22,457 nucleotides of DNA from Gracilaria domingensis (Eukaryota; Rhodophyta; Florideophyceae; Gracilariales; Gracilariaceae). Shown here piece by piece: positions 6,783 through 22,457 of this stretch. The number at the start of each line of letters is the position of its first letter. Position 1 is the stretch's first letter. Both the position numbers and the translations under genes were made by a program. Under the pieces are notes generated by a model that was not told the DNA's origin, searched no databases, and was given only the letters and a program-made list of their open reading frames with translations. The DNA lies in NCBI GenBank assembly GCA_022539475.1, contig VCMS01000500.1:1-22457 (forward strand), in the 5' to 3' direction.

Positions 6783-7383
6783 GATAACACGTTGGCTGGA
6801 AAGAACGGAGAGCTGAACACTAACTTTTCGAACAACACCAATCACGAAAACCTTACAAGAGCGGGCAGCTGATGTCGCACAACTGGCACGGGTACGGATG
6901 TTACGAAGTTCGCATGCCGTCCCGTTGCACAACCTGGAGTGATCACAACGTTCTTCTCGTACACCGGGCCCTGGGATGCGGCGCCTGGCAAGAGCAAAGC
7001 GCACAACGAGATTGACGTTGAATTCGTATGGAAGAACGGAAAGCTTACGTTGCAGGCGAATTACTTCACAAATGGACAGGGAGGCAACGAGCACCTCTTC
7101 CGATAAACTTCAATCCGGCAGCATCGATGAACAACTACGGATTCAATGGACAAGCAATTCCATCATGTGGTTCGTGAACGGAAAGATGGTGTACAAGACT
7201 TCAAAGAACATTCCCAAAGCACATCAAGCGCCGCATAAGATCATGATGAGCCTGTGGCCGGTGAGCTGGCAGGCGGCTCAATGGGGAGGAACTTACGAAT
7301 ACAAGGGTCACCGTACAGCGGCTTACGCAGCGGTAAGATTCACAAAGGGGCACGACTGCCAGATCATGAACTGGTTTCCGTAG
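6783..7383 (+). CDS. GH16 family endo-beta-glucanase (lichenase-like), frame-broken
   Basis: Glycoside hydrolase family 16 enzymes cleave beta-1,3 or mixed beta-1,3/1,4 glucans and are usually secreted. The catalytic core is clear at 7002-7025, reading HNEIDVEF, with the family's E-x-D-x-E box (nucleophile Glu at 7008-7010, acid/base Glu at 7020-7022). Upstream are YKSGQL (from 6854) and a YGCYEVRMP segment; then PGVITTFFSYTGP; downstream are the NYFTNGQGG, WFVNGK and KIMMSLWP blocks typical of lichenase-type GH16. The stop is TAG at 7381-7383. The frame changes about four times, near 6851, 6921, 7100 and 7142, each at a short C or T run. The N-terminus and any signal peptide are not identifiable; a CTAAT...CACAG sequence at 6773-6782 could be a 3' splice site. 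It is either a pseudogene or an intact gene with assembly errors. The family call is secure; the boundaries are not. Confidence 0.8.
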
Positions 7384-7768: not shown

Positions 7769-9114
7769 TTGAGCGTTCGCACGAATCGACATCTGCTCCT
7801 TCCCCGACACCGCCGACCGCATTGCCGCCGCCTTCCTCGCCCCGTCCCCCGTCCCGTCGCGTACTCTGGCTGGCCTACTTACCTCATTTGCGCCACCCAT
7901 CATGGGTACCACCTTGTCGCGCATACTCCCTACCTTCCGTATCTACACGCCGTGCGCCACCGCTTGTCCCTCCGCCCAATACCCGATCAACGCCGCGACG
8001 CATTCACATCGTCTCCGCACAAGTCCTTCTCCGCAGTGGAGCAAGCCGAGAACATTTTGCTTGAACATCTCACCCATGTTAAGTACACCAAACGACGTGT
8101 GGCGCTACCGTCAGGTCACACGCTCAACATGTTGTCGGCGGGCGATGTCTCGAATCCACCGCTCGTTCTGCTGCACGGATGGGGCGCTGGGCTCGCGTTT
8201 TTCGGACGTAACATAGCGGGTTTGGCTCCCTTTTACCGCCTTCATCTGCTGGACTGGCCAGGATTCGGCGGCAGTTCGCGTCCGTACCACTCGACCTCGC
8301 TTTCGGTTGATCATGCCGAGGCCTACTTTTGGACGCCTTCGATGGATGGGTGCAGCACATGCGCAAACAAGAACCTAACTTTCAACGCTTCCATATTGTT
8401 GCCCATTCAATGGGCGCATACCTTGCCGCTGTTTATGCTCTACGAAGTCCGCAAAACGTGTTGACGCTCACGCTTGCGAGTCCAGTTGGTCTGCCAGCTG
8501 CTCCACCGCAGAAGATACCGAGAGGGCCGTTGCTGCGTCGCGCTATTTTCTGGATAGTGTTCCGCATGTGGGACTGGGGCTTTACGCCGCAGTACTTTAT
8601 CCGTCAGGCAGGTACAAGTCTTGGGCGGAAAATGGCAAAGCGTTTCATTGAGCCACGCTTCAGTTTTCAGTCACAGAGCACCAAGGATGCTTTCATCGAG
8701 TATTTCTATCAGATCTCAGTCGCGGACGCAGCTGGGGAGCATTCACTCTGTACAATCCTGGAGAGCGGTGCGTATGCTAGGAAACCGCTTGCTGAACGCA
8801 TGGTTAAACTTCGAACTCCTACCTCATTCCTGTACGGCGATGGCGACTGGATGAGCTTCAAGTACGCTGAAAAGGTATGCGAGCAAATGAAAGCTCCGGC
8901 CACGGTACACATTGTCGAAGGGGCAGGTCATCACGTCTACTACGACAATGTGCAGATGTTTACAAAACTCATTTTGGAAAGCTGTGGTCGGGTGAGTGAG
9001 GAGATGCCGAAATCTTCGTCGTTTCTCACCGATTTCGAGGAACACCCCAGCACTACAATTGCTCAACCCACTGAACAGCAGTCCGAGTTTTCATCAACAC
9101 ATTACCAGGGGTAG
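7769..9114 (+). CDS. ABHD4/ABHD5 (CGI-58/ICT1)-type alpha/beta hydrolase, one frame break
   Basis: This looks like a lipase or lysophospholipid acyltransferase of the ABHD4/5 group, acting on lysophospholipids or lipid-droplet lipids. In order, I see the AENILLEHL segment that precedes the fold in this family, the oxyanion-hole HGWGAG (about 8175), DWPGFGGSSRP, the nucleophile elbow AHSMG with Ser at 8407-8409, GDGDW with the likely acid Asp near 8845, and GAGHHVYYD from about 8920, which contains the catalytic His and the HX4D motif. The reading frame shifts by -1 at a run of four T (8327-8330) between the DWPGFGG block and the nucleophile. The two parts together cover the whole fold, about 360 residues from AENILLEHL onward. 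The N-terminus is unresolved: the frame starts at TTG 7769 and has no in-frame ATG before the fold. Candidates are an upstream exon, or ATG 7902 in another frame. The stop is TAG at 9112-9114. Confidence 0.82.
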
Positions 9115-10073: not shown

Positions 10074-11075
10074 TTAGCCCAATGGTGGGAACTCTTCTGA
10101 ATCATTCAAAGCTGCGGCATCAACTTGCTCAAGCTGATCGCCCTCCGCTTCACCTCCATCGTATTGATCCTCATTCTTCTGCTTTTGGTAATAAAGGTCC
10201 TCCTCTAAAGATTCCGTATCGACCCCTTTCAAGCATGGGAAGGCAGTAGTCATGTTAGAGCGGAAGGAATATATACGAAACTGGACCAAGTAGCGCCCAA
10301 ACGAATATTCCGCCTCAATCTGATCACTCCCATCCCTACTAAACCAAAGCAAAGTATACAGGGCTATCTCGTATTCCGGAGAAGTGCCAATAAACATAGA
10401 CGAAACACTCTTTAGACAACCAAACCACTCAAAACGAATAATCAAAGCGTGTTGGTTCTCCACGGGGGCACCGCAAAGATCCCCGGCGAAGTCGACGTAT
10501 CCCATGTAATCAAAGTTACCTCGCTGCTCCTCAATGTACACCTGAATGTAGTTGTGAAGACCTTTCACATCATCTCCATCTATCTCCCCACAAAACACAT
10601 GCTCAAATGCCGACGAATCTTTGTCACGGCCGCGATCGTACATTCCAAACCATAAGTCCGCTAAGACTTCTTTGAATTCATCCATAGAAGAAGCTACTCC
10701 ATACCCGTTCTCTCTCAGCCAGTCGTACACAAACCTAACACAATCAGACTCACAAATACATTCCAAGAATCGCTCCTCTTCCTCTTTCTCCTCTTCCGAA
10801 ACGCGTTCCGGGACACCTTGGTTCACAACATAATTATCCAGCAAACATCTGAAGAGTCTGTATGAATCAATCTCCCAGACATCATCCGAAATAAAGTCGA
10901 ACAGCGGGACTCGCGCAGCGTCATCAGAGCGATTTTCGGTTTGACTTTGCGGGGAGATCCTGTAATGCTTCTCAGGGACCAGCCTATTGGTATCTAACTC
11001 CCACAAGAACGAGATTGCCTCACCCAACGACTGAGAGGATCTTGCAAGCGCGTCTTCAACGGAAAGTCGGGTCAT
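10074..11075 (-). CDS. EndoU (XendoU-type) poly(U)-specific endoribonuclease
   Basis: XendoU-type enzymes cleave RNA at uridines and leave 2',3'-cyclic phosphate ends, usually with Mn2+ dependence; they process snoRNAs and other RNAs. The 333-residue product is one uninterrupted frame from ATG at 11073-11075 to TAA at 10074-10076. Residues 20-45 carry LWELDTNRL, a typical domain opening. The catalytic triad is visible: His159 in FEHVF, His174 in LHNYIQVY and Lys222 in CLKSVSS, followed by IGTSPEYEIALYTLLWF (about 229-245). Spacing agrees with known XendoU (two His and one Lys over about 60 residues). There is an acidic stretch at 93-101 and an acidic Gln/Glu/Asp-rich tail from about 287. No signal peptide or somatomedin-B domain is seen, unlike many animal secreted forms, so an intracellular enzyme is likely. 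The gene is intact, in contrast to its neighbours. Confidence 0.93.
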   Translation of the reverse strand: MTRLSVEDALARSSQSLGEAISFLWELDTNRLVPEKHYRISPQSQTENRSDDAARVPLFDFISDDVWEIDSYRLFRCLLDNYVVNQGVPERVSEEEKEEEERFLECICESDCVRFVYDWLRENGYGVASSMDEFKEVLADLWFGMYDRGRDKDSSAFEHVFCGEIDGDDVKGLHNYIQVYIEEQRGNFDYMGYVDFAGDLCGAPVENQHALIIRFEWFGCLKSVSSMFIGTSPEYEIALYTLLWFSRDGSDQIEAEYSFGRYLVQFRIYSFRSNMTTAFPCLKGVDTESLEEDLYYQKQKNEDQYDGGEAEGDQLEQVDAAALNDSEEFPPLG

Positions 11076-11815: not shown

Positions 11816-12733
11816 TTAGATGTCATCAATCCTACGACACACTTTCACGATAACACGACAAAACCCAGCTGCCTTCGGATGCAACACGGCATTTTGCACG
11901 CCCTGAAAGCTTTCAACTTCCGAATGAACAAAGGAGCGGATAATTTCTGCCATCTCCAACGTTCCCGTTAGCAAAGAGGTCCTGATAGAACATTCTGTCC
12001 GGACAAGATCACTAAAAAGACACTCAGCAGGAGCAGATGATGCCTGAGCGGAGAGCACAGCAAGTGCAACGCGATTAAACGGAACTGGACTGACAAAACC
12101 ATGACGGTCGTTCACCTTTTTCCAGTATCTTAAAGCTATTCCAGGATCCCGGCGTCCCTTTTGCACTAGATCGGTAATCATAGCACGATGAAAGATGCTA
12201 AAAACTGCTCTTAAATCATCTGAATGAGCTGATAGATCTTCGTCCAACTCTACAGCTTCCCTGATAACAGACGTAATTAAAAGCCGTATGTACACCTCTT
12301 TCTCCGTCTGTGTGGCTTTCAGAAAGTCGAGAGTACGTTCGTTAACATCCAAAAGTGCTGCTAAATGAAACAACAGCACTCTGCGTGACCTTCGCAACTC
12401 TATCGGTGGGGAATACTGCAAAGGTAGAGCCCTAATATTGTCATAATTCACTGGTTGATCTGGAGCCCATGTGGCTCTGTTCTCTTCCATCACATTCCAA
12501 ACATGTCCCAAGCGTTCCTTGACATGTTGTGCTAAATTCAAAGCTAAACTCTTTGCATAGGGAACAAGCGATGTTATAGAACGTGCCTCATCTCTCTTAA
12601 AAGCAGCCAATGCACTGCTCTGGCGACTTGGCAGCGCAGTTCCGACGTTAACGTCAGTAGCTCCATCAAATTCGATGTCAAGTGTTGCAGCCTGAGCTAG
12701 TTCATTTTCATGGGCTGACATACTCCCACCCAT
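11816..12733 (-). CDS. hAT-superfamily transposase, C-terminal fragment
   Basis: hAT transposases cut and paste DNA elements with short terminal inverted repeats and 8-bp target duplications. The diagnostic part is the C-terminal dimerisation region: VALAVLSAQASSAPAECLFSD followed by RTSLLTGTLEMAEIIRSF, matching the usual pattern of small and polar residues before a Phe-Ser and a later Arg/Leu-rich helix. I place the start at ATG 12731-12733; the open frame continues to 12898, but only through a GTG and into DNA of different character. The 305 residues are about half a full transposase; the N-terminal BED finger and first catalytic Asp region are absent, so it is probably an immobile remnant or a domesticated piece. 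The stop is TAA at 11816-11818. Confidence 0.65.
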   Translation of the reverse strand: MGGSMSAHENELAQAATLDIEFDGATDVNVGTALPSRQSSALAAFKRDEARSITSLVPYAKSLALNLAQHVKERLGHVWNVMEENRATWAPDQPVNYDNIRALPLQYSPPIELRRSRRVLLFHLAALLDVNERTLDFLKATQTEKEVYIRLLITSVIREAVELDEDLSAHSDDLRAVFSIFHRAMITDLVQKGRRDPGIALRYWKKVNDRHGFVSPVPFNRVALAVLSAQASSAPAECLFSDLVRTECSIRTSLLTGTLEMAEIIRSFVHSEVESFQGVQNAVLHPKAAGFCRVIVKVCRRIDDI

Positions 12734-12898
12734 TATACACAATGTCTCATAAAGTTCTCTCAGCAATCGCGGTGCTCTAGATAGTGTCACTTTTTGTGGT
12801 ATAGCCGATCGGTGCGAGCTGCTAGTGGGGAGCCCTGCGTGGGCTCGACCCGGCAGAGGAGTGAAACACGTGACACCTAATAGGTCGGCAACACCCAC

Positions 12899-14364
12899 CG
12901 TTGCCTATAGTGCACGGTGACCAAGTGGTAAATACGCCTGCACTGGTGTGCGGCAGGCACGTATAACCCTCAAGGTCAGCAAAACTATTAGAAAACTACT
13001 AGACTTACCAATTGGTGACTGTAGAACCGAACTGGTGTCAAATTAGCCTAGTTGGTGCTTGACTTTACCATTTGGTGTGGGAGGTTAGCGTCTCGGGGGT
13101 TTAGTACACCCGAGCGCCCCTCCGGCTCTCACGGGCCTAGTGCCACGTGGGCCACCTGGAGGTGCATTTGTGGTGCACCACCCCGGCCACATATCTATAC
13201 TACCTAGTAATTATTAATTCTAAATCATCGAGAATAGACTAATTAGTCCTGTCCAAGCCTGCGCTGGCGCGTCCCACGTGGTACAGTAAACACACGTGCC
13301 CGGGAGCCCGTGACGTCACCACTTGGTCTTGTAGAGCCCCCGTTGATCTGGCCGAGCTATACTACAGACCCCCCTCCTACCGACAGGCACGCCCCGTGGC
13401 TGCGAAGTTCCCACGGCGTTTGCCGCCTTTTCGCCAAACGGTCGTCGGCGCGCATCGCCTGGCGCACGGCGCGTCTCGCGATGACGCGAAGACGGCGCGG
13501 TGCACGGCGCGGTTCGCCATATGCACTGCACCGCCATTACCCATGTCGCCGTACCCCCTGTGGTAGGTGCGACCGTACCTTACATCCCTCGTGGTATTGG
13601 AACGCGAAACCGCGAACCGCGACCATTCAGGTTGATCTTGTCGCGCGCCTGGTACCACGTGGTTGTCTTCGCCTCTTCAGTCCCTCCCGGAGGAGTCCGC
13701 CACTCCATCTTCCCCTGTCCGTCCTCCCCCTGGGCGGGTTAGTCCCGGCTTACCAGTTGGTTTCGAGCCCCCCGTCGGTGGGGTTCGCAGTTGTCAACCG
13801 ATCGGCACACCGCCCCCTCGTGGTGTCGCTCCTATTCTTTGTTGGCCACTTGGTCTTGTGCCGTACTGAGGTGATACCTCGTTGGTTCCGACACGTACTG
13901 TTTCTCTGCTTGAGTGAGGGCGCCACTGGGGTGTCGTTGCCTTGGGCGGCGGCGTCGAGGGTGAGGAGACTCCTGCCCGTGGCTCTTCAGACTTCGTGAC
14001 CGTACCGGTGCTGACGCCGCTTCTACCTAGTGGTCTGCCTCATCGTGGTGTTCAGGCTTGATTCAGGTCCAGCCGAGGGGTTTACCCGACTGCGCGGCGT
14101 TCAGCGCCCCTCCACCTGGTTCCTCGCGGTCTCCTTCCGTCCCTCAGGTTCCCTCTGGGGTGGTTGTGACCCCCCTTGTTCACGGAACCCGTCCAGCCGG
14201 CTTACAACCCTGGTCATTTTCACGGTGTGTCAGCTCGCTCGAGCGGCGTGCCCGTTCTCTGTGACCCCTCAGGTTTCATCTAGTCATCCAATTGGTGGTG
14301 TTCCCCCTCTCGGTTGGTATCCTCCGTGGCACGCTCTCGCTCCAACTCGCGCCTTTTATACCTC
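12899..14364. other. Non-coding leader or LTR-like DNA at the left edge of the retroelement region
   Basis: No ATG-initiated gene is convincing; the frame 13310-13999 starts at GTG and is Arg/Pro/Leu-rich without a domain. The stretch contains seven ACC-N4-GGT motifs (12919, 13007, 13067, 13318, 13654, 13752, 14025), among the densest clusters in the window, plus short hairpins such as GCCTGC/GCAGGC at 12936-12958. It precedes the plus-strand ORF pair and may be its promoter and 5' leader, or part of a long terminal repeat. Proof of an LTR needs a second copy, which I do not see here. Confidence 0.4.
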
Positions 14365-16299
14365 ATGGGTGATCAACCCGCTTCCCCAACAGGGTGGTCG
14401 ATGACGTTCGAGCGCCGTGAAGACGGTGCCGAGGAGGGCATCGCGCGCGCCCTTCCCGTTGTGGTGGACCCCGGGGGTGAGACGGCGCCGTTTCAATCGA
14501 ATTACCACGTGGTTGACTCTTCGCAGCCCTGTCTGCCGTCCCAGACCGGTACACCTGTGTCCTTTCCATCGGGCGCCGAGGCTCCCGTGGAGGCCAACCA
14601 CTTGGTATTGGAGGAGCCGCACTTCGACCCTATAAAGGGATATTCGGCTTCTGAAGTCTCCCCCTCGGCGGAGGTCAACCGTTCGGTTCGCGAAACTGTT
14701 GCCTCCCGGTCGAGGATGTCTGGCAAGACCCCTGGGGTAGCGCGCGGCCGCGGAGGTGGCATCTTCAAGCCTAACACGCGGTCGAGTACGCGTTCTCGTC
14801 AAGACCCTTACGGTCGCGGTGGGTATGATCCCTACGCAGCCGCCGCGGGCCCGAGCAACGTTAACCCTCTTGCGGTGGCCGGTACGGTGGAGGCTCAACA
14901 GCTGAATCCTCATGACACTAATAGGACGCACGGGCAGCCGCATGCCCATTATGGTGCACGCTTTGCCGATATCTCCGCCGAATTGGTTGCCCTGGGGAAC
15001 TGGCCTTTCCACATCAGTTCCTCACTCTGTCCCTTGCGGTTCCGCCACATGGGTCTCACGCAGTATACCGCAATTGCCCGTTGGGATTGTCGCCGGTTGG
15101 AGGCGGTGCCTATGGCACCTGCTCCACCACGCAAGGGCGAGAAGCAGAGCCGGTTCGGTCGACAACAGTGTTTCCATGCGCGGCAGCGACACACGAAGTT
15201 TCTATACTACATCCCCGTGGCCGTAGCGTCGGATCTCCCCTTCATCCGCTGCGATGGGGAGGTCCACTACTTCCGCCGTTTGGTAGATATCCTTCACCGC
15301 TTGGACGAACCTGCTACGCACATCGAGGTCGATCTGGAGTACGTCGCGTTTGAGCGCCCTTTAGATACCAATTATTGGACTGACCGTGGGAGGTGGGCGA
15401 CCGATGCGATGGCTGAGAACCGTGTTCGTCATCGTAACAACCGTACGCGGACCATGTTCCTGTTCCACAACGTTGAGTATTGGTCGCAGAGCGACCACAA
15501 CCGCCGGACATGGTATGTCAATCGACCCTCTTGGTGGGACCACTATGAAGTATGTCAGTGGCTGGAAGTGCCGACCCCGCCGGTCCTTGCGTACTTTGGT
15601 AGTAGCATCTCCCTCGAGAGGAACAACGCATATGCCGTTTGGTCGGTCGCGCGCAGCGAGTGGGCCGTCATGGTGGCTATCCTCGCCCTTCAGGCTTCCG
15701 TGGAAGGTGTGACTTGGGACACGCGCTGCCCTGACAAGTCTGTCGGGATCAGCGGAACTCAACCAGTTGGTCGTATCTTCAATATTCCCAACGATGTGGT
15801 CGGCGACATTCGTGCCATGGGGCTCTCCAACATCGTGGAGGGCACCAAATATACTGCGCAGCAGTTGGATGGCTACCTCACTGCGGTAAGTAACCACAAT
15901 TGGGGGCCTGAACAGGGTTGGGATGTCTACGACCCGGAGGTTCATAGCATCGTGCCTCTCCAACAGCAGCACATGGCTGGCGAAGACCCATTTGGTAATG
16001 ACGATACCGTGATGGTGGCTGCCGAGAACTATGAGTCCCCCGCATTGCCTCCGTCGGCACCTGTACAGGCTACTCCTCCGACCAGCGTGGCTGCGCCTGT
16101 TCCAAGTGGTCCGGCGAACCCTCAGGCGGCTGCTCACCCTCCCGGACGGGCTGCCCAGGGGCCTCTTCGGGTTGGTTTCCAGTCGCTTCCGGTGAATCCG
16201 GTGCCCCCTGGTGGTGATAGTGGCGCGATACGGAGCGCTCTGGCTCGTCTCAACCACGCCTCGATGGTGCACTTCAACCGTCCTGGTCTCAATGAATGA
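14365..16299 (+). CDS. ORF1, orphan structural-like protein of the plus-strand unit
   Basis: This is a 644-residue frame from ATG 14365 (context CTCATGG) to TGA 16297-16299; the open frame begins earlier, at a TTG. I recognise no family. An N-terminal Pro/Ser/acidic region is followed by a basic Arg-Gly segment (about residues 124-153, including RGRGGG and YGRGG). A long Trp/Tyr/His-rich and probably globular core spans about residues 202-553, and a Pro/Ala-rich tail follows. It lacks the helical Gag signature I know from Ty3/gypsy and has no CCHC knuckle. A nucleic-acid-binding N-terminus plus a large folded core fits a coat or Gag-like protein, but that is inference. It overlaps ORF2 by 8 bases and faces pol tail to tail. 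Four ACC-N4-GGT motifs lie inside it. Confidence 0.6.
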   Translation: MGDQPASPTGWSMTFERREDGAEEGIARALPVVVDPGGETAPFQSNYHVVDSSQPCLPSQTGTPVSFPSGAEAPVEANHLVLEEPHFDPIKGYSASEVSPSAEVNRSVRETVASRSRMSGKTPGVARGRGGGIFKPNTRSSTRSRQDPYGRGGYDPYAAAAGPSNVNPLAVAGTVEAQQLNPHDTNRTHGQPHAHYGARFADISAELVALGNWPFHISSSLCPLRFRHMGLTQYTAIARWDCRRLEAVPMAPAPPRKGEKQSRFGRQQCFHARQRHTKFLYYIPVAVASDLPFIRCDGEVHYFRRLVDILHRLDEPATHIEVDLEYVAFERPLDTNYWTDRGRWATDAMAENRVRHRNNRTRTMFLFHNVEYWSQSDHNRRTWYVNRPSWWDHYEVCQWLEVPTPPVLAYFGSSISLERNNAYAVWSVARSEWAVMVAILALQASVEGVTWDTRCPDKSVGISGTQPVGRIFNIPNDVVGDIRAMGLSNIVEGTKYTAQQLDGYLTAVSNHNWGPEQGWDVYDPEVHSIVPLQQQHMAGEDPFGNDDTVMVAAENYESPALPPSAPVQATPPTSVAAPVPSGPANPQAAAHPPGRAAQGPLRVGFQSLPVNPVPPGGDSGAIRSALARLNHASMVHFNRPGLNE

Positions 16300-17095
16300 C
16301 ATCCTCACCGCTGTGGATACTCTTACCAACTTGCTCCCCGTGGTTGCTCACCACGAGCGGCGCACTTCTGAGCTGCGACAGTTCCGCGACTACTTCCAGC
16401 GCAATCTCTACCGTGAGGTGACAGCCTATGTTGGTCAGTTGAGCAACCTTGTGGAAGGCCACGCGCCGTTACATCGACCCCCTGTGGACAGTTTCAACCC
16501 GTACGCTCCTGCGTCACAGCAACCTGCGACCCCAATGGTAGGCTTTGGTGGCCTTGGTACGTATCAACTCCCTGGTGGACCTCCTGGTGGTGATCCTGCG
16601 GCACCTTTCCATACTCCGCTTGGTCCTCACAACGTTCCTCTTCCTCTAGCAAGTACTGGGACAGGAGCACCAAGTGGTTTCTCAACTGGTTTCCGTTCGG
16701 CTCCGCTTCCGCCGACGTCCGGTGCTTCTAGGCCGCCTACTGGTCTGACCCCCGGTGCAGGGCCGTCTAGTGGTCTTGCTCCTCCGACCTCTGGTGGCAT
16801 CCCTCCGTCTAGCTTACCGCCTTCCTTCCATCCACCCACTGGTCCTGCGAATACCATGCCGGTAGTCAGCAGCGGTACCCCTGCGGGACCTGCTGGTACT
16901 TCTGCTCCCTTACCAAGCGGTGGTGCGCCACCGAGCGCGGCTAGCGGCGGGGGCGGAAGCTCCGCCGGACCTATGTCGGTGTCCTCTGGTCGTGGAGGTT
17001 CCGCTTCATCTCGCGGGACCTCCCGTGGACGTGGTCGCGGTCGTGGAACCAGTCGTGGACGCGGACGTGGCCGTGGGTCCTCCAAGGCCTCCTAA
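16292..17095 (+). CDS. ORF2, Pro/Gly/Ser-rich protein with an Arg-Gly-rich tail
   Basis: This is a 267-residue frame starting at ATG 16292, which overlaps the end of ORF1 in ATGAATGA, a classic stop/restart arrangement. Residues 1-56 look helical and may oligomerise. Residues about 60-225 are low-complexity Pro/Gly/Ser/Thr with recurring PPT, SG and GPP. The last 35 or so residues are built from SRGRGRGRG units, an RGG/GR-type nucleic-acid-binding tail reminiscent of foamy-virus Gag GR boxes rather than of CCHC nucleocapsids. No catalytic motif is visible. The stop is TAA at 17093-17095, with a polyadenylation signal 38 bases on. Function is unknown; genome or RNA binding together with ORF1 is the most economical guess. 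Confidence 0.58.
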   Translation: MNDILTAVDTLTNLLPVVAHHERRTSELRQFRDYFQRNLYREVTAYVGQLSNLVEGHAPLHRPPVDSFNPYAPASQQPATPMVGFGGLGTYQLPGGPPGGDPAAPFHTPLGPHNVPLPLASTGTGAPSGFSTGFRSAPLPPTSGASRPPTGLTPGAGPSSGLAPPTSGGIPPSSLPPSFHPPTGPANTMPVVSSGTPAGPAGTSAPLPSGGAPPSAASGGGGSSAGPMSVSSGRGGSASSRGTSRGRGRGRGTSRGRGRGRGSSKAS

Positions 17096-17133
17096 GTCAC
17101 CTCGTGGTTCCCTCTCGTGGATTCTTCTCGACT

Positions 17134-17139
17134 AATAAA
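17134..17139 (+). terminator. Polyadenylation signal of the ORF1/ORF2 transcript
   Basis: AATAAA lies 38 bases after the ORF2 stop and is followed by a GT/T-rich stretch (about 17140-17180: TGTGTTC, CTTCTTTTGTTTTCC) that fits a downstream element. This supports a real plus-strand transcript ending before the convergent pol gene. Confidence 0.6.
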
Positions 17140-17233
17140 GTGTCTTGCATTGTGTTCTCTGATCTTCTTTTGTTTTCCTGTTAGGTTAGTTAGTTAGCTT
17201 TTCGTGTAGCGTGGCGTTCAACAGCTTCGATAA

Positions 17234-17253
17234 CCCCCCCCCCTTTCCTTAGC
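17234..17253 (-). promoter_or_regulatory. Polypurine tract at the end of pol
   Basis: On the minus strand the sequence reads GCTAAGGAAAGGGGGGGGGG, running through the pol stop codon (TAA at 17249-17251). A purine tract here is where LTR retrotransposons keep the plus-strand DNA primer, immediately before the 3' LTR. If so, the LTR would begin near 17233 and run toward lower coordinates, that is, into the intergenic gap and plus-strand ORFs. No second LTR copy is visible to confirm it. Confidence 0.5.
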
Positions 17254-18928
17254 GACGCGTACCACGCGAAGCAATACCAGTTGGTGGGGGCGTTCGCCCT
17301 TGTTTGCGCCAGTATCGGATGATGAAGTTGTTAGGGATATGACCAGGTGGTTCCATAGAGTCGTGCTCGGGCGACCATCCATACCATCTTACCCGGTAGC
17401 GCATACCCTTTGTGGTGTGTTCGTGACCTACAATGGTGTCAATAGCGCACTCCTGAGCGTCTACTTGAGGGTGTGACTCTTCCATTTGGTCATGGGGTGC
17501 GTGGCTCCCCGTGGGTGGTGTGACCCGTTGGTCTTGCCGAGGCTCGATCTCCTGTGCCGCTTGGGTCGTGGGGTCAGCCGTTACGGCTCTGGTGGAAGGT
17601 TGACCGCTCGGCTGACTCATCATAGGAGGGGGTATGGGAGACGTTTGCTCCCTCTCCGCTTCCTGCTGCGTTGGCTCACCTATTGGTTGTGCATTCGCTG
17701 TCGTCGGTTGTGCGGCCTTGACAATCCTGTCGATGGAGACCGTGTTCTCCAAACCTTCCATTATGACCGTAGCGGTATGCTCGTCGGAGCGAATCACCTT
17801 GTATGGTCCCGTGGACTTGGGTAGTAGTTTAGAATTGATATCCTCCTCAAGGCGGATGTCCTCTTCCATCTCCGCTGGGGTTGGTCGCTTACCTTTTGGT
17901 GGCACGTCAAGGAAGACCATGTCTCCTGCTACCACTTTGGTCACTTTGCTCACCGTTCGGTCATAGTCCGCTTTATACCGTTCTTGGGCTGCTGTCATCT
18001 TAACTTTGGCAGCAGCCAAAGCGGCGCGTAACTTCTGGAGTATGTCTCTCTTGACCTTCGCCGGTGTGAGTGTCCCGGCCGCTTCCGAGCGGTCAGGTCC
18101 AGGCTGGACGATAATACCATGTGGTGTTCGCGAAAGTACCAGGTCGAATGGGGTTGTTTGAGTGACCCTGTGGACCTGGAGGTTGTACGCATATGTCAAT
18201 GGTTGGACATACTCCGACCATGTGGTTTGGTGCTCTTCGACATAGTGCCGTAGGCGTGCCACTAGGGTCTTATTGAAGCGTTCCACTTGGCCGTTTGTTT
18301 GAGGATGATAGGCCGTGGTAAAGTAGTGCTTGACCCCTAGCATTGTACAAACCGCCTCGAAGAACTTAGAAGCTAGGTTCGAACCGTTATCGGTCAGTAG
18401 GTACATGGGAGCACCGTACGGGTAGACCCAATTCTCCAGGAAGGCTGTCGCTAGTGTCGTTGCCGTTTGGTTCTTCAGAGGTATGGCTCTGGTGAGCTTT
18501 GTGAACCTGTCGGTTATGACTACTACAAAGCGATAACCCTCTGAGGTCTTGGGCAGGGGCCCCAGTATGTCGATTGCTACGAATTCCAGGGGCCCCGCCG
18601 CCGGGAATAGCTTTAGGTACTTCCTGTGCTTCGCCACACCACCTCGGGTCTTAATGCACGAATTGCATTGCGCCACATAGGTATATACATCGTTAGCCAT
18701 ATGCGGCCAGTAGAATTGCCTCCGAAGGGTATAGTACAACCGCGTGGCTCCAGGGTGCCCCGAAAGCCGTGGATTGTGTGACAGATATAACACCCTTTGT
18801 CTTAATGACTCAGGTACGACCTTCTGGAGAGCTCCGTCTAAAGGTGAGCGTCTGATGAGGTACCCATTGTGGTCGACGTCGAAATGAGAATCCTTCCTTC
18901 CAAGTACGTCAGCGAGCGTCTTGCACAA
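17249..18928 (-). CDS. Ty3/gypsy integrase with chromodomain
   Basis: The integrase inserts the element's cDNA. Residues 51-91 carry the HHCC zinc-binding domain (His51, His58, Cys88, Cys91). The rve core shows Asp120 in AIDILGP, Asp180 in LTDNGSN and Glu216 in GQVERFN, with 35 residues between the last two, the usual D,D35E spacing. A GPY module follows (Gly374-Pro375-Tyr376 in KSTGPYKV), then a Pro/Gln-rich linker, and a C-terminal chromodomain at about 493-543 (RYRVRWYGWSPEHDSMEP). The chromodomain keeps two aromatic positions but lacks the N-terminal cage aromatic, as in group II chromodomains that may not read histone methylation in the usual way. The frame enters from the preceding segment by a -1 change near 18955. 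This exon-like block is itself uninterrupted for 559 codons and looks functional. Confidence 0.9.
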   Translation of the reverse strand: MCKTLADVLGRKDSHFDVDHNGYLIRRSPLDGALQKVVPESLRQRVLYLSHNPRLSGHPGATRLYYTLRRQFYWPHMANDVYTYVAQCNSCIKTRGGVAKHRKYLKLFPAAGPLEFVAIDILGPLPKTSEGYRFVVVITDRFTKLTRAIPLKNQTATTLATAFLENWVYPYGAPMYLLTDNGSNLASKFFEAVCTMLGVKHYFTTAYHPQTNGQVERFNKTLVARLRHYVEEHQTTWSEYVQPLTYAYNLQVHRVTQTTPFDLVLSRTPHGIIVQPGPDRSEAAGTLTPAKVKRDILQKLRAALAAAKVKMTAAQERYKADYDRTVSKVTKVVAGDMVFLDVPPKGKRPTPAEMEEDIRLEEDINSKLLPKSTGPYKVIRSDEHTATVIMEGLENTVSIDRIVKAAQPTTANAQPIGEPTQQEAEREQTSPIPPPMMSQPSGQPSTRAVTADPTTQAAQEIEPRQDQRVTPPTGSHAPHDQMEESHPQVDAQECAIDTIVGHEHTTKGMRYRVRWYGWSPEHDSMEPPGHIPNNFIIRYWRKQGRTPPPTGIASRGTRR

Positions 18929-19164
18929 CCTATCGGTCGATTGTTCGCGTAAGATTCCTCACGGGTGATTGGAGCGTGTTCCCCTTCCTCCACAGGAAGG
19001 AGGGTCTCCACTACCACTTGGTACGTACTGTCATCATGCCAGTATCCCTTCAGAACTTCATTGACCTCGTGGTTAGCTGGTTCTATAGTAAAGCATGGGA
19101 TGTCGTCGTCCACTGGGTCAGTGTCCAATCCTTCGGTATTCAACCGGGACAATGCATCCGCCAC
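18838..19164 (-). CDS. RNase H end and RNase H-integrase spacer of pol
   Basis: This part of pol opens with ADALSRLN, the conserved end of Ty3/gypsy RNase H, and continues through an acidic spacer (PVDDDIP, EEGEHAP) that leads to the integrase. It reads in a different frame from both neighbours. The frame enters at a C run on the plus strand (19176-19179) and leaves at 18955-18956, a T pair on the plus strand. It would be part of one polyprotein in an intact copy. Confidence 0.7.
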   Translation of the reverse strand: MADALSRLNTEGLDTDPVDDDIPCFTIEPANHEVNEVLKGYWHDDSTYQVVVETLLPVEEGEHAPITREESYANNRPIGCARRSLTYLEGRILISTSTTMGTSSDAHL

Positions 19165-19832
19165 TCGGTGCTTGACCCCGGGCGGTACTGCACATCGTAC
19201 TCAAACTCCGAGAGTCTCAGACGCCATCGGGCCAGACGACCCGATGCGTCCGCCAAGCCTAATATCCACCTCAAGGAGTCGTGATCCGTTCGGAGCGTGA
19301 AGCGCACACCATATAGGTAAGGACGTAGCATGAGCATGCTCCAAACAACCGCTAGGCATTCCTTCTCCGTTACGGTGTAGTTCTGCTCCGCTTGGTTAAG
19401 AGCTCTACTCCAATACCCAATTGGTGCGAGCTTGCCGTCCTCCTGTTCCTGCATTAGGCAGCAACCTATTTGGGCGTCCGACGCATCCGTGTCCAGTGTA
19501 TACGGGAGTCCCGTTTTGGGCAATGCCAGTACCGGTGGGGAGAGAAGCGCTGCTTTCAATGTATAGAACGCCTCTACCTCGTCCTCTTCCAGGTGGTCAA
19601 AGTGTGTGGGCTGCCCCTTCTGCAACCTCCGGTTCAGGGGTGCGGCTATCTTTGCAAACCCTTGATGAACCGCCGGTAGACGTTGCATAGACCTATAAAG
19701 GATCGTATGTCCGTCTGCGACGTAGGGAGCTTCGCTTCCTGTACCGCTCGGATATTCCGTTTGGTCACTTCGAGTTTCCCGGGGCTTATTGTATGCCCTA
19801 GGTACTCTACCTCTTGGTTGAAGAACATACAC
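19140..19832 (-). CDS. RNase H domain of pol
   Basis: This Ty3/gypsy-type RNase H removes RNA from the RNA:DNA hybrid. Meaningful sequence begins at GFAKIAAPLNRRL (about residue 58), just after the frame change from RT near 19656; the earlier residues are out of frame. Visible motifs are YTLDTDASDAQIG (first catalytic Asp about 116), YTVTEKECLAVVW (Glu156) and LRTDHDSLRW (Asp183), then YRPGS before the next frame change. Catalytic residues appear preserved. Confidence 0.85.
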   Translation of the reverse strand: MYVLQPRGRVPRAYNKPRETRSDQTEYPSGTGSEAPYVADGHTILYRSMQRLPAVHQGFAKIAAPLNRRLQKGQPTHFDHLEEDEVEAFYTLKAALLSPPVLALPKTGLPYTLDTDASDAQIGCCLMQEQEDGKLAPIGYWSRALNQAEQNYTVTEKECLAVVWSMLMLRPYLYGVRFTLRTDHDSLRWILGLADASGRLARWRLRLSEFEYDVQYRPGSSTEWRMHCPG

Positions 19833-20470
19833 TTTCGTAGTTTGAGGGTCACGCCTGCCTCTTGTAGCAACTGCAGTACCACTTGGACGTGTGAGAAGTG
19901 CTTCTCTATGGACCTCGAGTAGATGACTACGTCATCTATGTATACCAATGCGGTTGTCCACTTCACTTTAGACAGTATAATGTCTAACGCCCTTTGGAAG
20001 GTAGCGGGGGCGTTTCTTAAACCAAACGGCATGCGTAAGAAGCGATACAGGCCTGCGTGGCATGTAAACGCAGTCTTATCACGGTCACCCTCTGGTATTT
20101 CGATCTGCCAATACCCGCAGTTGGCGTCCAGTGTGGTAAAGATGTTCGCATCTCCTAGGGAGTCGATGCATTCATCCATCCTCGGGATGGGGTACGAGTC
20201 CCTTACCGTTACGGCATTAAGTTTTCTGTAGTCAATACAGAACCTCATACGGGTCTCTCCTCGTTTTTGGACTAGCACTACAGGGCTAGCCCATTCCGAG
20301 TTTGCCGGTTCTATAACCCCCTCGCGGAGCATCCGCTCTACCTCCTCCAGCTCTACCTCACGGGCCTTATGTCCCGCACGGTATGGCTGTTGGTGGATGG
20401 GACGGGAGTCCGGTTTGAGGTCAATCCTGTGCTGGGTGGCCTTAATGGCTCCCAGCTTACCCGACCACAT
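19646..20470 (-). CDS. Reverse transcriptase of pol
   Basis: This is an uninterrupted RT domain. HRIDLKPDSRPIHQQPYR leads into the fingers; then come ASPVVLVQKR, MRFCIDYRKLN, FTTLDANCGYWQIEI (catalytic Asp115), RMPFGLRNAPATFQR and LVYIDDVVIYS (Asp179 and Asp180 of the YxDD box), then YLGHTIS and SFIGLCNVYRRFI. All three metal-binding Asp are present. The same frame continues upstream of the first Met as EELRARILGLLEPFSTMW, back to an in-frame TGA at 20522-20524, and resumes beyond it, so RT and the upstream linker share one frame. The frame leaves RT by a -1 change at 19656-19658 into RNase H. Confidence 0.92.
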   Translation of the reverse strand: MWSGKLGAIKATQHRIDLKPDSRPIHQQPYRAGHKAREVELEEVERMLREGVIEPANSEWASPVVLVQKRGETRMRFCIDYRKLNAVTVRDSYPIPRMDECIDSLGDANIFTTLDANCGYWQIEIPEGDRDKTAFTCHAGLYRFLRMPFGLRNAPATFQRALDIILSKVKWTTALVYIDDVVIYSRSIEKHFSHVQVVLQLLQEAGVTLKLRKCMFFNQEVEYLGHTISPGKLEVTKRNIRAVQEAKLPTSQTDIRSFIGLCNVYRRFIKGLQR

Positions 20471-20521
20471 GGTACTGAATGGCTCCAGGAGTCCAAGGAT
20501 CCGAGCTCTGAGCTCTTCCCT

Positions 20522-20860
20522 TCAAGTCCTATATTCACCTCCGTCTTCCAATTGGTCACTGGGGTCGAGCTCCAGTTTCTGGTCTTCTCGCTCAGCTAGT
20601 CGCTGCACCATATGGTCTGTTCGCGACGAATTCAACGAATTGACACTGCCCCCCCCTTCCTTAGCATCCACGACCTCGTGGGACCATTGTGGTATAATCG
20701 TAAAGATCGTACGGGGAGCCGGTAAGGCAAGACCAATTACGGTGTGTTTTGGCAACTTGACCGGGCGGTTGCTGAAGTTACTCAGGTAGACCTGAAACGG
20801 TTTTGTCGGTATGTTGTCGACTATACCATTCGCCATTAAGGTCATGTGTCGTTCGGCCAA
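20522..20860 (-). CDS. Protease-RT linker of pol
   Basis: The frame contains FQVYLSNFSNRPVKLPKHTVIGLA, the conserved strand-rich segment that lies between protease and RT in Ty3/gypsy polyproteins, then a Glu/Asp-rich linker. It is in the same frame as RT and separated from it by a single TGA codon. It also holds the internal purine tract (encoding DAKEGGGS). Confidence 0.72.
   Translation of the reverse strand: MAERHMTLMANGIVDNIPTKPFQVYLSNFSNRPVKLPKHTVIGLALPAPRTIFTIIPQWSHEVVDAKEGGGSVNSLNSSRTDHMVQRLAEREDQKLELDPSDQLEDGGEYRT
20649..20664 (-). promoter_or_regulatory. Internal polypurine tract, a near copy of the 3' tract
   Basis: On the minus strand it reads CTAAGGAAGGGGGGGG; with the preceding G it shares GCTAAGGAA plus the long G run with the tract at the pol end. 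Some retroelements (HIV-1, Ty1) carry a second, central polypurine tract that primes a second plus-strand. Here the tract is also coding, so the resemblance may be selected or incidental. Confidence 0.4.
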
Positions 20861-21400
20861 CCGTGAATGGTTCTGAACGGATAACAGGCCAGGTTGTTGG
20901 CATGTGACCTTTCACTACCAGGTGGTCATTAGGCGGTATTGTTACGCTTTGCCCATCGCACCTTGTTGGAGAGTGTGTTTCCGGGACCGGTTGGTGTCGA
21001 GTGGCTGGTTCTCTTTCGGAGAGCACCCTTTGTGGTTGACAATAATGGCGATCCGGGGCCATTATGGAAAGCAGACTGTCCTTAGGAACGTGGAAAATTG
21101 CCTGACATGTCTGGTCTATAAAAGGTTGTGCCGAGGATGCAGTCTGTTGCCAGTTGGTTAACACTATGAAGCGAACTTCGGACCCTCATGGTGTCAAATA
21201 AGTACCATTCTGGTAAGCGCTTCCTGATGACGGGTAGTGGTCTGTTGTTGGCGTCACAGTGGGTTAGTTACATGTACATTGTCTGAAGCTTATAAGTTGT
21301 GTTAGTTAATCTTTGGCATTCACAGATTAGGTCCTGCTCCGGTTGTCCGGACAGTACGCATGGTACAGTGGGTTAGAAGTACAACCCGAGGTGCGTTTAC
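20861..21400 (-). pseudogene. Aspartic protease region of pol, degraded
   Basis: Segments in different frames match the Ty3/gypsy protease and its C-terminal flank: a TTGAGPNL box near 21329-21352 where DTGAGPNL is expected, NNRPLPVI, QLATDCILG near 21150, and VTIPPNDHLVVKGHM near 20920-20970. The active-site Asp is not readable in the same frame as the Gly-Ala box, and several stops intervene. Together they place a protease directly upstream of the RT linker, in a damaged state. Confidence 0.5.
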
Positions 21401-22457
21401 GCTTAAGTTACTTATGCTTGAGAAAGCATATCGGTTCGGTGCCGTCATGAGGCTCTCCTCATCCCTGTAAACCAATGGGTATTGTCTATACTGCACCCAC
21501 TTGGTCTGGAAGGCCTTCCGTCGTTCGAGCAGTTGGGGAAGGCCTCGTTATGCCCAACTGTTCGGCGTTCCGGCCTGCGGGGCGGGGGATCCGTTTTGGT
21601 CCTGCTCCGTGACGAGGTGTACCTATGAGGTGTCGGCTTGCTTGGGTCGTCGCATTTGCGTGTCCCGTGCCTGCGCTCCGTGCGGGGGCCCAAATCATAT
21701 CCTGGTGGTTCTGCTGGCGGAGCAGTCAGTGGAAGCGTTCCCTGTTCTGCGGAGCCACTACTTGGGCACGTCTGTTGCCAAGTGGTGGTGCGACAAGACA
21801 GAACCCACAAGAGGGGATGTGCCGGTTGTGGGGTCCTTCATCGCGAGCGACGACGCGCGCGATGGGGACGGCCTCCAGTCGGTATGCACTCTCGTTTGCT
21901 GCGGGTATGGTCCTTGTTACCATATGGCTTGAATGGTACCGCTAGGACCGGGACTGAGACCGGTAACGGATACCTGTGATGGTGGAGCTTGAGGTTGTTC
22001 GAGGGTGGCTCGCCTGGATAAGGGAGCTGGACCAGGAGGATTACCGTGCGATCAGTTGTCGGTTGTGCAGCACCGAAGTGGCTGGGGTGACCCTGGGAGG
22101 CGTATTGTGTGGACGCCTCCCCCGAGTGTCTACTTCTCCTCTACGCGTCCAAACACTGACCGCCTGGTTTTTCCTTTCTCCTTCGATGGTTTGCCAAGTG
22201 GTGCGGAGGTCTTTCCTGGCCCTGACCAGGAACGGTGGTCGCCTACCCTGTGCATGCGGGGCTAGTGCGTGTTAGTCGACGCGTCGGTTGGTAGCTAGGT
22301 AAGTTTATCGAACCTGTGATCGGATAGACTCGCACGGTTGTCCGCGTCATTGAAGTTCAACCTTTTGGTAGTATAAGACGCTTCCACGCGGGAAGCCAAT
22401 GGCCCATAAGGAGGCGAGCGAATTCCAATTCGGGTTTTGTCCGCGCGCTGCGGTACG
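21401..22457. other. Right-edge retroelement DNA without a recognised gene
   Basis: Gag should lie here if pol is arranged conventionally. Minus-strand frames (21445-21810, and an ATG-less frame at about 22050-22275) are Arg/Pro/Ser-rich, but I find no Gag signature and no CCHC knuckle. Plus-strand frames (21501-21932, 21976-22275) have no family match. The ACC-N4-GGT motif and its one-off variants continue to at least 22369, so the element probably extends past the window. Confidence 0.4.

Follow-up and report, generated by a model that had tools for sequence, protein, structure and literature searches.

We analysed a 22,457-nucleotide stretch of the red alga Gracilaria domingensis, contig C500 of an assembly of 77.9 Mb in 680 contigs (PMC10388701 gives 78 Mb for this genome); the whole stretch is referred to as the window. 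From position 12795 to the contig end it holds most of a Ty3/gypsy chromovirus, a retrotransposon with long terminal repeats (LTRs), which was identified by Pfam, carries gag-pol on the minus strand and is densely studded with a short inverted dyad, ACC-N4..6-GGT (Table 1). Reverse transcriptase (RT), RNase H and integrase follow the gypsy order, with a chromodomain, in the window as well as in C98, whose pol is open; C98 and other C-number names denote element copies or pieces elsewhere in the same assembly. Only one LTR lies inside the window. Its partner, the 5' LTR, and the remaining gag lie beyond the contig, as shown by alignment with C98, and paired LTRs are present in C4, C63 and C28. 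In the window copy, gag-pol and an antisense open reading frame (ORF) are broken, but other copies are open, including an open pol of 1552 residues.

Table 1. Features of the element and of the neighbouring DNA in the window.
Feature	Position	Strand	Remarks
LTR, 572 bp, TG...CA, 3' LTR of the element	12795..13366	-	also present at the opposite end of C4, C63 and C28
Array of ACC-N4..6-GGT (43 N4, 28 N5, 18 N6)	12919..22369		N4 sites first at 12920, last at 22360
Antisense ORF, part one, broken here	14365..16299	+	in frame with the start of the 908-residue ORF of C98
Antisense ORF, part two, other frame, Pro/Gly-rich, RG-rich end	16211..17095	+
pol: integrase zinc-binding and core domains, chromodomain	17249..18928	-	Pfam
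pol: RNase H	19140..19832	-	Pfam
pol: RT	19646..20470	-	Pfam; 141 places scored in the genome
Further broken pol frames (20522-20860, 20778-21164)	20522..21164	-	without a Pfam match of their own
pol start and part of gag	21165..22457	-	alignment to copy C98
XendoU endoribonuclease, host gene	10074-11075	-	Pfam
Alpha/beta hydrolase, host gene	8329-9114	+	Pfam
Glycosyl hydrolase 16 (partial), host gene	6976-7383	+	Pfam

A first-pass annotation had counted at least 32 copies of ACC-N4-GGT in 12919-22369 and one before it. The excess proved larger: the window holds 45, with 43 in this region and 2 in the preceding 12918 bases, and the next most frequent NNN-N4 palindrome in the region reached 9. 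Dinucleotide shuffles of the region (200) gave 3.8±1.9 N4 sites, with a maximum of 10. Spacings of five and six bases were enriched too (28 vs 4.0±1.8 and 18 vs 4.1±1.8), but those of three and seven were not (6 vs 3.7±2.0 and 5 vs 3.7±1.9), showing that the signal is ACC-N4..6-GGT. Thus, the exact N4 motif of the annotation is real and element-specific, but its flexible spacing and the other dyads of sister families had not been foreseen. Genome-wide, ACC-N4-GGT occurred 21,944 times in 77.9 Mb, a density of 2.8 per 10 kb that is 16-fold below the 45 per 10 kb of the region, so that the motif is not equally common throughout; the pattern read backwards occurred 18,689 times. The window's family was sampled as the window, C4, C63, C66, C98 and the right half of C28, and the four long copies C4, C63, C28 and C98 contained 64, 68, 64 and 61 N4 sites, respectively.

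Synonymous-codon shuffles (500) were performed on C98, whose frames are open. They left N4 counts far below those observed in pol (24 vs 6.1±2.1), gag (13 vs 2.9±1.5) and the antisense ORF (11 vs 2.4±1.4), and with N4 to N6 pooled, z was 12.2, 7.5 and 7.7, respectively. Across three families, dyads exceeded synonymous shuffles in all eight coding stretches tested (z 7.5 to 23.6). In C98, both pol and gag have sites in three codon phases, whereas those of the antisense ORF occupy two. Site density was alike in gag, pol, the antisense ORF and the LTR, with LTR and leader equally enriched; the 572-bp LTR alone contains 5 N4 and 3 N5 sites. Within the pol of C98, the RT, RNase H and integrase cores were poorer in sites (0.019 vs 0.036 per residue). 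No direct repeats of at least 20 bases were found in 12000-22457. Composition, codon use or coding repeats as the source of the array are therefore ruled out by the shuffles, leaving this account a negligible probability: the excess survives both kinds of shuffle, the non-coding LTR and leader share it, and other palindromes are not enriched. Codon use does contribute, but little, as the 6.1 N4 sites per 4.7 kb of synonymously shuffled C98 pol compare with 3.8 in the dinucleotide-shuffled 9.5-kb region. The first-pass annotation had been right that codon use alone does not explain the motif, and that sites occur in coding and non-coding parts and in more than one phase; its reservation that four copies in the Pro/Gly-rich part of ORF2 might stem from coding repeats is answered by the synonymous shuffles.

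We then compared sister families whose RT is about 62-81% identical to that of the window's family. Samples were small throughout: two elements for C28b/C232, two for C18 and the second C131 element, one element and a 2.2-kb piece (L047) for C57, one 3-kb and three near-identical 2.2-kb pieces for C41, 4.4 kb of the first C131 element, 2.2 kb of C66:259000 and 3 kb of C79, which is known by its antisense ORF only. Each family carried, in its own spelling, an inverted dyad whose left half contains CC and whose right half contains GG. C28b and C232 prefer ACC-N5-GGT (56 and 59) over N4 (43 and 47). C18 and the second C131 element use CCG-N3/N4-CGG (40 and 37, and 31 and 31), while their ACC...GGT does not rise above background. 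The first C131 element has CCC-N3/N4-GGG (19 and 15 vs 1.9), C41 has CCG-N2-CGG (16 vs 1.8, and 10-13 in its three near copies), and C57 has CCG-N7/N6-CGG (45 and 40 vs 9.3) together with CCC-N6-GGG (27 vs 3.2). The C79 piece contains ACC...GGT at N8 and N6 (12 and 11 vs 1.8), and the weak signal of C66:259000 (TCC-N6-GGA, 7 vs 1.0) is suggestive only. As negative controls, four pieces of 3 kb each, one of them from a copia family and the others from three more distant gypsy families (RT 38-43%), showed no dyads of this type. In this sample, the trait is thus confined to one lineage, and its spelling varies between families.

The dyads recur at one per 50 to 100 bases over LTR, non-coding and coding parts, but single sites turn over. 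Two families with 63.6% pol identity have 44 and 41 sites in aligned pol, 17 of which lie within 3 columns of a site of the other family (2.8 expected), in agreement with the birth and decay of sites noted in the first-pass annotation. Conservation of single sites was rejected, as site bases were 74.9% identical, hardly more than ACC/GGT outside sites (72.8%; 69.5% in the other direction). High turnover with low conservation is expected if density matters rather than the single site, and density, not each site, seems to be what is kept. Even spacing of stems was slight in C57 (z -2.1) and C18 (-1.8), and absent or opposite in C98 (0.1), C28b (-0.5), C232 (+2.1) and the first C131 element (+1.2).

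The structure of the sites was clearest in C57. At CCx-N7-yGG, all four Watson-Crick combinations were raised 4.8-5.8-fold over expectation (AT 17, CG 18, GC 45, TA 16), and AA (1), TT (1) and GT (0) were rare, although some mismatches were raised too (AG 3.3-fold; CA, CC and CT 2.4-fold). The next inward pairs covary as well, and CC...GG without an inner pair stayed near background (1.0-1.5). Pair enrichment depended on the remaining loop, from 0.91 at two bases to 1.50, 1.85 and 2.12 at three, four and five. This dependence on a loop of at least three bases is the steric limit of a hairpin, which argues that the sites are hairpins. The 11.8 kb of C57, genes included, contain 230 maximal stems of at least 4 bp with CC at the foot, against 4 to 79 for the other fifteen outer dinucleotides; the polarity is fixed as CC...GG rather than GG...CC. 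Synonymous shuffles again left fewer, with 109 stems vs 17.1±3.9 in C57 pol and 84 three-bp stems vs 25.6±4.8 in C18 pol. C18 obeys the loop rule (0.84 at loop 2, 1.74 at loop 4), and the first C131 element and the C66 and C79 pieces agree with it in small numbers. Pairing just outside the stem was depleted in six of six stretches tested (0.07-0.18 vs about 0.25 expected), and since it is rarer than chance, the stem has a defined foot. By their sequence patterns, the sites of C57 and C18 are mini stem-loops with unpaired flanks. Covariation and loop rule rule out a pure double-stranded DNA dimer site as the sole account in these two families.

The window's family behaves differently. ACCA-N2-TGGT occurs 24 times vs 1.0 expected, and the outer and inner A...T pairs are favoured by identity, other Watson-Crick pairs not. 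On its own, this family would pass for a dimer site ACCA-N2-TGGT with flexible spacing. The first-pass annotation had argued for a DNA-level dimer site and against long RNA hairpins; this account suits the window's family, whose bases behave as almost independent half-sites and in which bases past the dyad are indeed unpaired and long RNA hairpins are rejected, but it does not fit the hairpin behaviour of C57 and C18. From the kinship of the families, the window's dyad would be the same trait as that of C57, with a short, identity-specific stem.

Any-identity, strictly Watson-Crick pairs above a minimum loop are also the expected trace of a mutational by-product, in which RT would fold back at CC...GG and copy its own new strand, perfecting quasi-palindromes in each cycle, so that family differences would be differences between reverse transcriptases. 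We consider this improbable. Such copying predicts neither the sharp end of pairing at CC/GG, nor the fixed polarity, nor that the window's family has an identity-specific ACC...GGT that does not covary. Furthermore, gag and pol are as dense in sites as non-coding parts, although the pol cores of C98 are less so.

The explanation we tentatively favour, while rating it somewhat below an even chance, is that the dyads are dispersed, family-specific recognition sites for a protein of the element, their likeliest role being that of packaging signals for Gag in the genomic RNA; a packaging signal, one of several options in the first-pass annotation, is thus the leading reading here. An array of short inverted-repeat sites would cover the whole element, genes included, its sister versions sharing a CC...GG core and differing by family in spacing, in the third base and in how many further pairs they have. 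The element's own nucleic-acid-binding protein, most likely Gag on full-length genomic RNA, would read the sites, which would act jointly as dispersed assembly or packaging signals that give specificity. Among co-resident related families, a diverging code could keep packaging selective for an element's own RNA. With similar reserve, we suggest that each family spells its own stem-loop or dyad genome-wide, in anchor bases, stem length and loop range, and that its own protein may tell self from sisters by it, the code co-evolving with the reader. We infer that a reader selects the sites, that Gag may be this reader and that it could act on RNA. Host-protein targets, tolerated or exploited by the element, are very unlikely, since one host protein would not explain why families of a single genome have different dyads, and sites that serve silencing would be expected to disappear, yet one per 50-100 bases is kept.

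Strand asymmetries speak for RNA. On the genomic-RNA strand, C57 flanks were G...A in 69 and T...C in 34 cases, C18 flanks avoided T...G (2 vs 21 C...A), and loops were poorer in G than in C in C57, C18 and the first C131 element. Packaging signals of viruses are, moreover, described as many similar stem-loops dispersed along the genome (PMC6281560), a likeness in favour of the Gag reading. Several observations weigh against it. RNA should favour G-U pairs, but in C57 stems G-U was no commoner than A-C (141 vs 144, summed over positions). The flank asymmetry is not uniform among families, being reversed in C28b (T...G vs C...A, 13 to 6) and G...A 5 to 10 in C98, and in the ACC families loop G/C leans the opposite way without significance. 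RNA folding in 150-base windows was weak (z -0.36 to -0.94 sense, -0.42 to -0.83 antisense). The loop rule fails in the window's family (1.26 at loop 2 in C98), C28b/C232 (1.35, 1.14) and C41 (1.52). In the window's family, the two half-sites depend little on each other, and CC-N4-GG alone remains at 1.9 times background, both of which suit a double-stranded DNA dimer. Finally, no Pfam nucleic-acid-binding domain was found in the Gag sequences scanned; a feature visible by eye in the Gag of C98 and C57 we take to be a CCHC-like knuckle. On balance, we lean slightly towards action on RNA over DNA.

The main rival is a DNA-level self-recognition resembling that of VANC, in which the product of the antisense ORF, or the chromodomain-bearing integrase, would bind the dyads as a dimer on integrated copies and thereby keep these active or mark them as self. 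Fungal zinc-cluster proteins were also considered as conceivable readers. Strict Watson-Crick symmetry without a gain for G-U is in favour of the DNA-level rival, as are, in the window's family, additive ACCA/TGGT half-sites whose inner bases are symmetric. So is the distribution of the antisense ORF, which, besides Gag, encodes the other candidate reader. It lies between pol and the 3' LTR in the window, C98 and C57, and was found on the other strand, 2-8 kb downstream of RT, at no fewer than 100 of the 141 best-scored RT places among 2307 candidates. Among the matches compared (73 of 73, 15 of 149, 79 of 150 and 82 of 110), 3 places had one on the same strand only and 38 had none found; the count is a lower bound, and the choice of matches by contig may bias it. 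The ORF is a mark of the lineage, with forms of about 600, 660, 690, 790 and 935 residues in many of its families, no inner stop at 52 of 73 places in the C57 form, and relatives in the Gracilariales Gracilariopsis chorda and Agarophyton chilense. However, any-identity covariation, the loop rule and avoided outer pairing in C57 are unsuited to a double-stranded DNA dimer. The ORF also went undetected by a hidden Markov model search in two dyad-dense copies of the family with 79% RT identity, which could depend on a protein supplied in trans or on a different one, and it was found near 4 of 14 RT places in the 77-90% band. A homologue search with the C98 ORF gave no match at E <= 0.001, the Pfam scan of the antisense ORFs gave none, DNA-binding domains included, and the AlphaFold model, built on 6 sequences, had a mean predicted local distance difference test score (pLDDT) of 42. 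We regard the DNA-level role as rather unlikely.

Some copies appear to be very young, as the LTR pairs of C57 (858 bp) and C28 (572 bp) are 100% identical. A polypurine tract on the sense strand of the element adjoins the 3' LTR at 13369-13378, and two internal tracts with the same CTAAGG start, at 17234-17252 (pol end) and 20649-20664 (within pol), resemble central polypurine tracts. With the same pattern, all three were found in C98, one in C28b and none in C57 or C18. Adjoining the element, an ORF of 360 residues on the minus strand (11816-12898) looks by eye like what we take to be the C-terminal part of a hAT transposase, with no match in a Pfam scan. The XendoU product shares 95% identity with a protein from Gracilaria domingensis, and an Agarophyton chilense protein matches it at 72%.

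The arrays touch on how related retroelements in one cell keep their RNAs or silencing states apart. Several families in one genome present parallel, diverged recognition arrays that are legible from sequence alone, so that the reader protein and its specificity are directly testable. The simple motif of the window would by itself hide the rule that the sister families reveal. If the proposed reading is true, dispersed packaging signals would be extended to LTR retrotransposons or, if the sites act on DNA, anti-silencing codes to retroelements. The arrays show that coding sequence can carry a dense second code. Among the listed titles and abstract openings on Gracilaria or red-algal retrotransposons and on dispersed retrotransposon motifs, no such motif appeared.

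Among known systems, RNA viruses and hepatitis B virus are described as having dispersed packaging signals, many similar stem-loops along the genome, coding parts included (PMC6281560). The C57 and C18 families resemble these in having many stem-loops with a shared feature along the element; for the window's family, stems are putative. They differ in that the array belongs to an LTR retrotransposon, that the foot of the stem (CC...GG) and not the loop carries what is shared, and that several diverged versions coexist in one genome, with RNA action and Gag binding putative. VANC of Arabidopsis VANDAL elements, as described in PMC5735166, pairs an extra gene with a short family-specific motif that is dense in the element's own copies, a likeness that counts for the DNA-level rival, and the motif studied here is rare elsewhere in the genome, as a VANC-type motif requires. 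Against this, VANC motifs lie mainly in non-coding tandem repeats of a DNA transposon, unlike the palindromic or hairpin sites here, which occupy coding and non-coding parts of a retroelement without tandem repeats; the antisense ORF would be only a putative anti-silencing counterpart. Retand elements, plant Ty3/gypsy retrotransposons, also have an antisense ORF between pol and the 3' LTR, TRP28, thought to bind DNA (PMC11963269). They are non-chromoviruses of flowering plants, whereas a chromodomain is present here; the TRP28 domain (PF04195) had no match at E <= 1 in the whole genome, and the available account of Retand mentions family-specific tandem repeats, not a dispersed palindrome. With Ty3/gypsy chromoviruses, the elements share LTRs, RT, RNase H, integrase and chromodomain, and what sets them apart from other chromoviruses is the antisense ORF together with an element-wide array of dyads.

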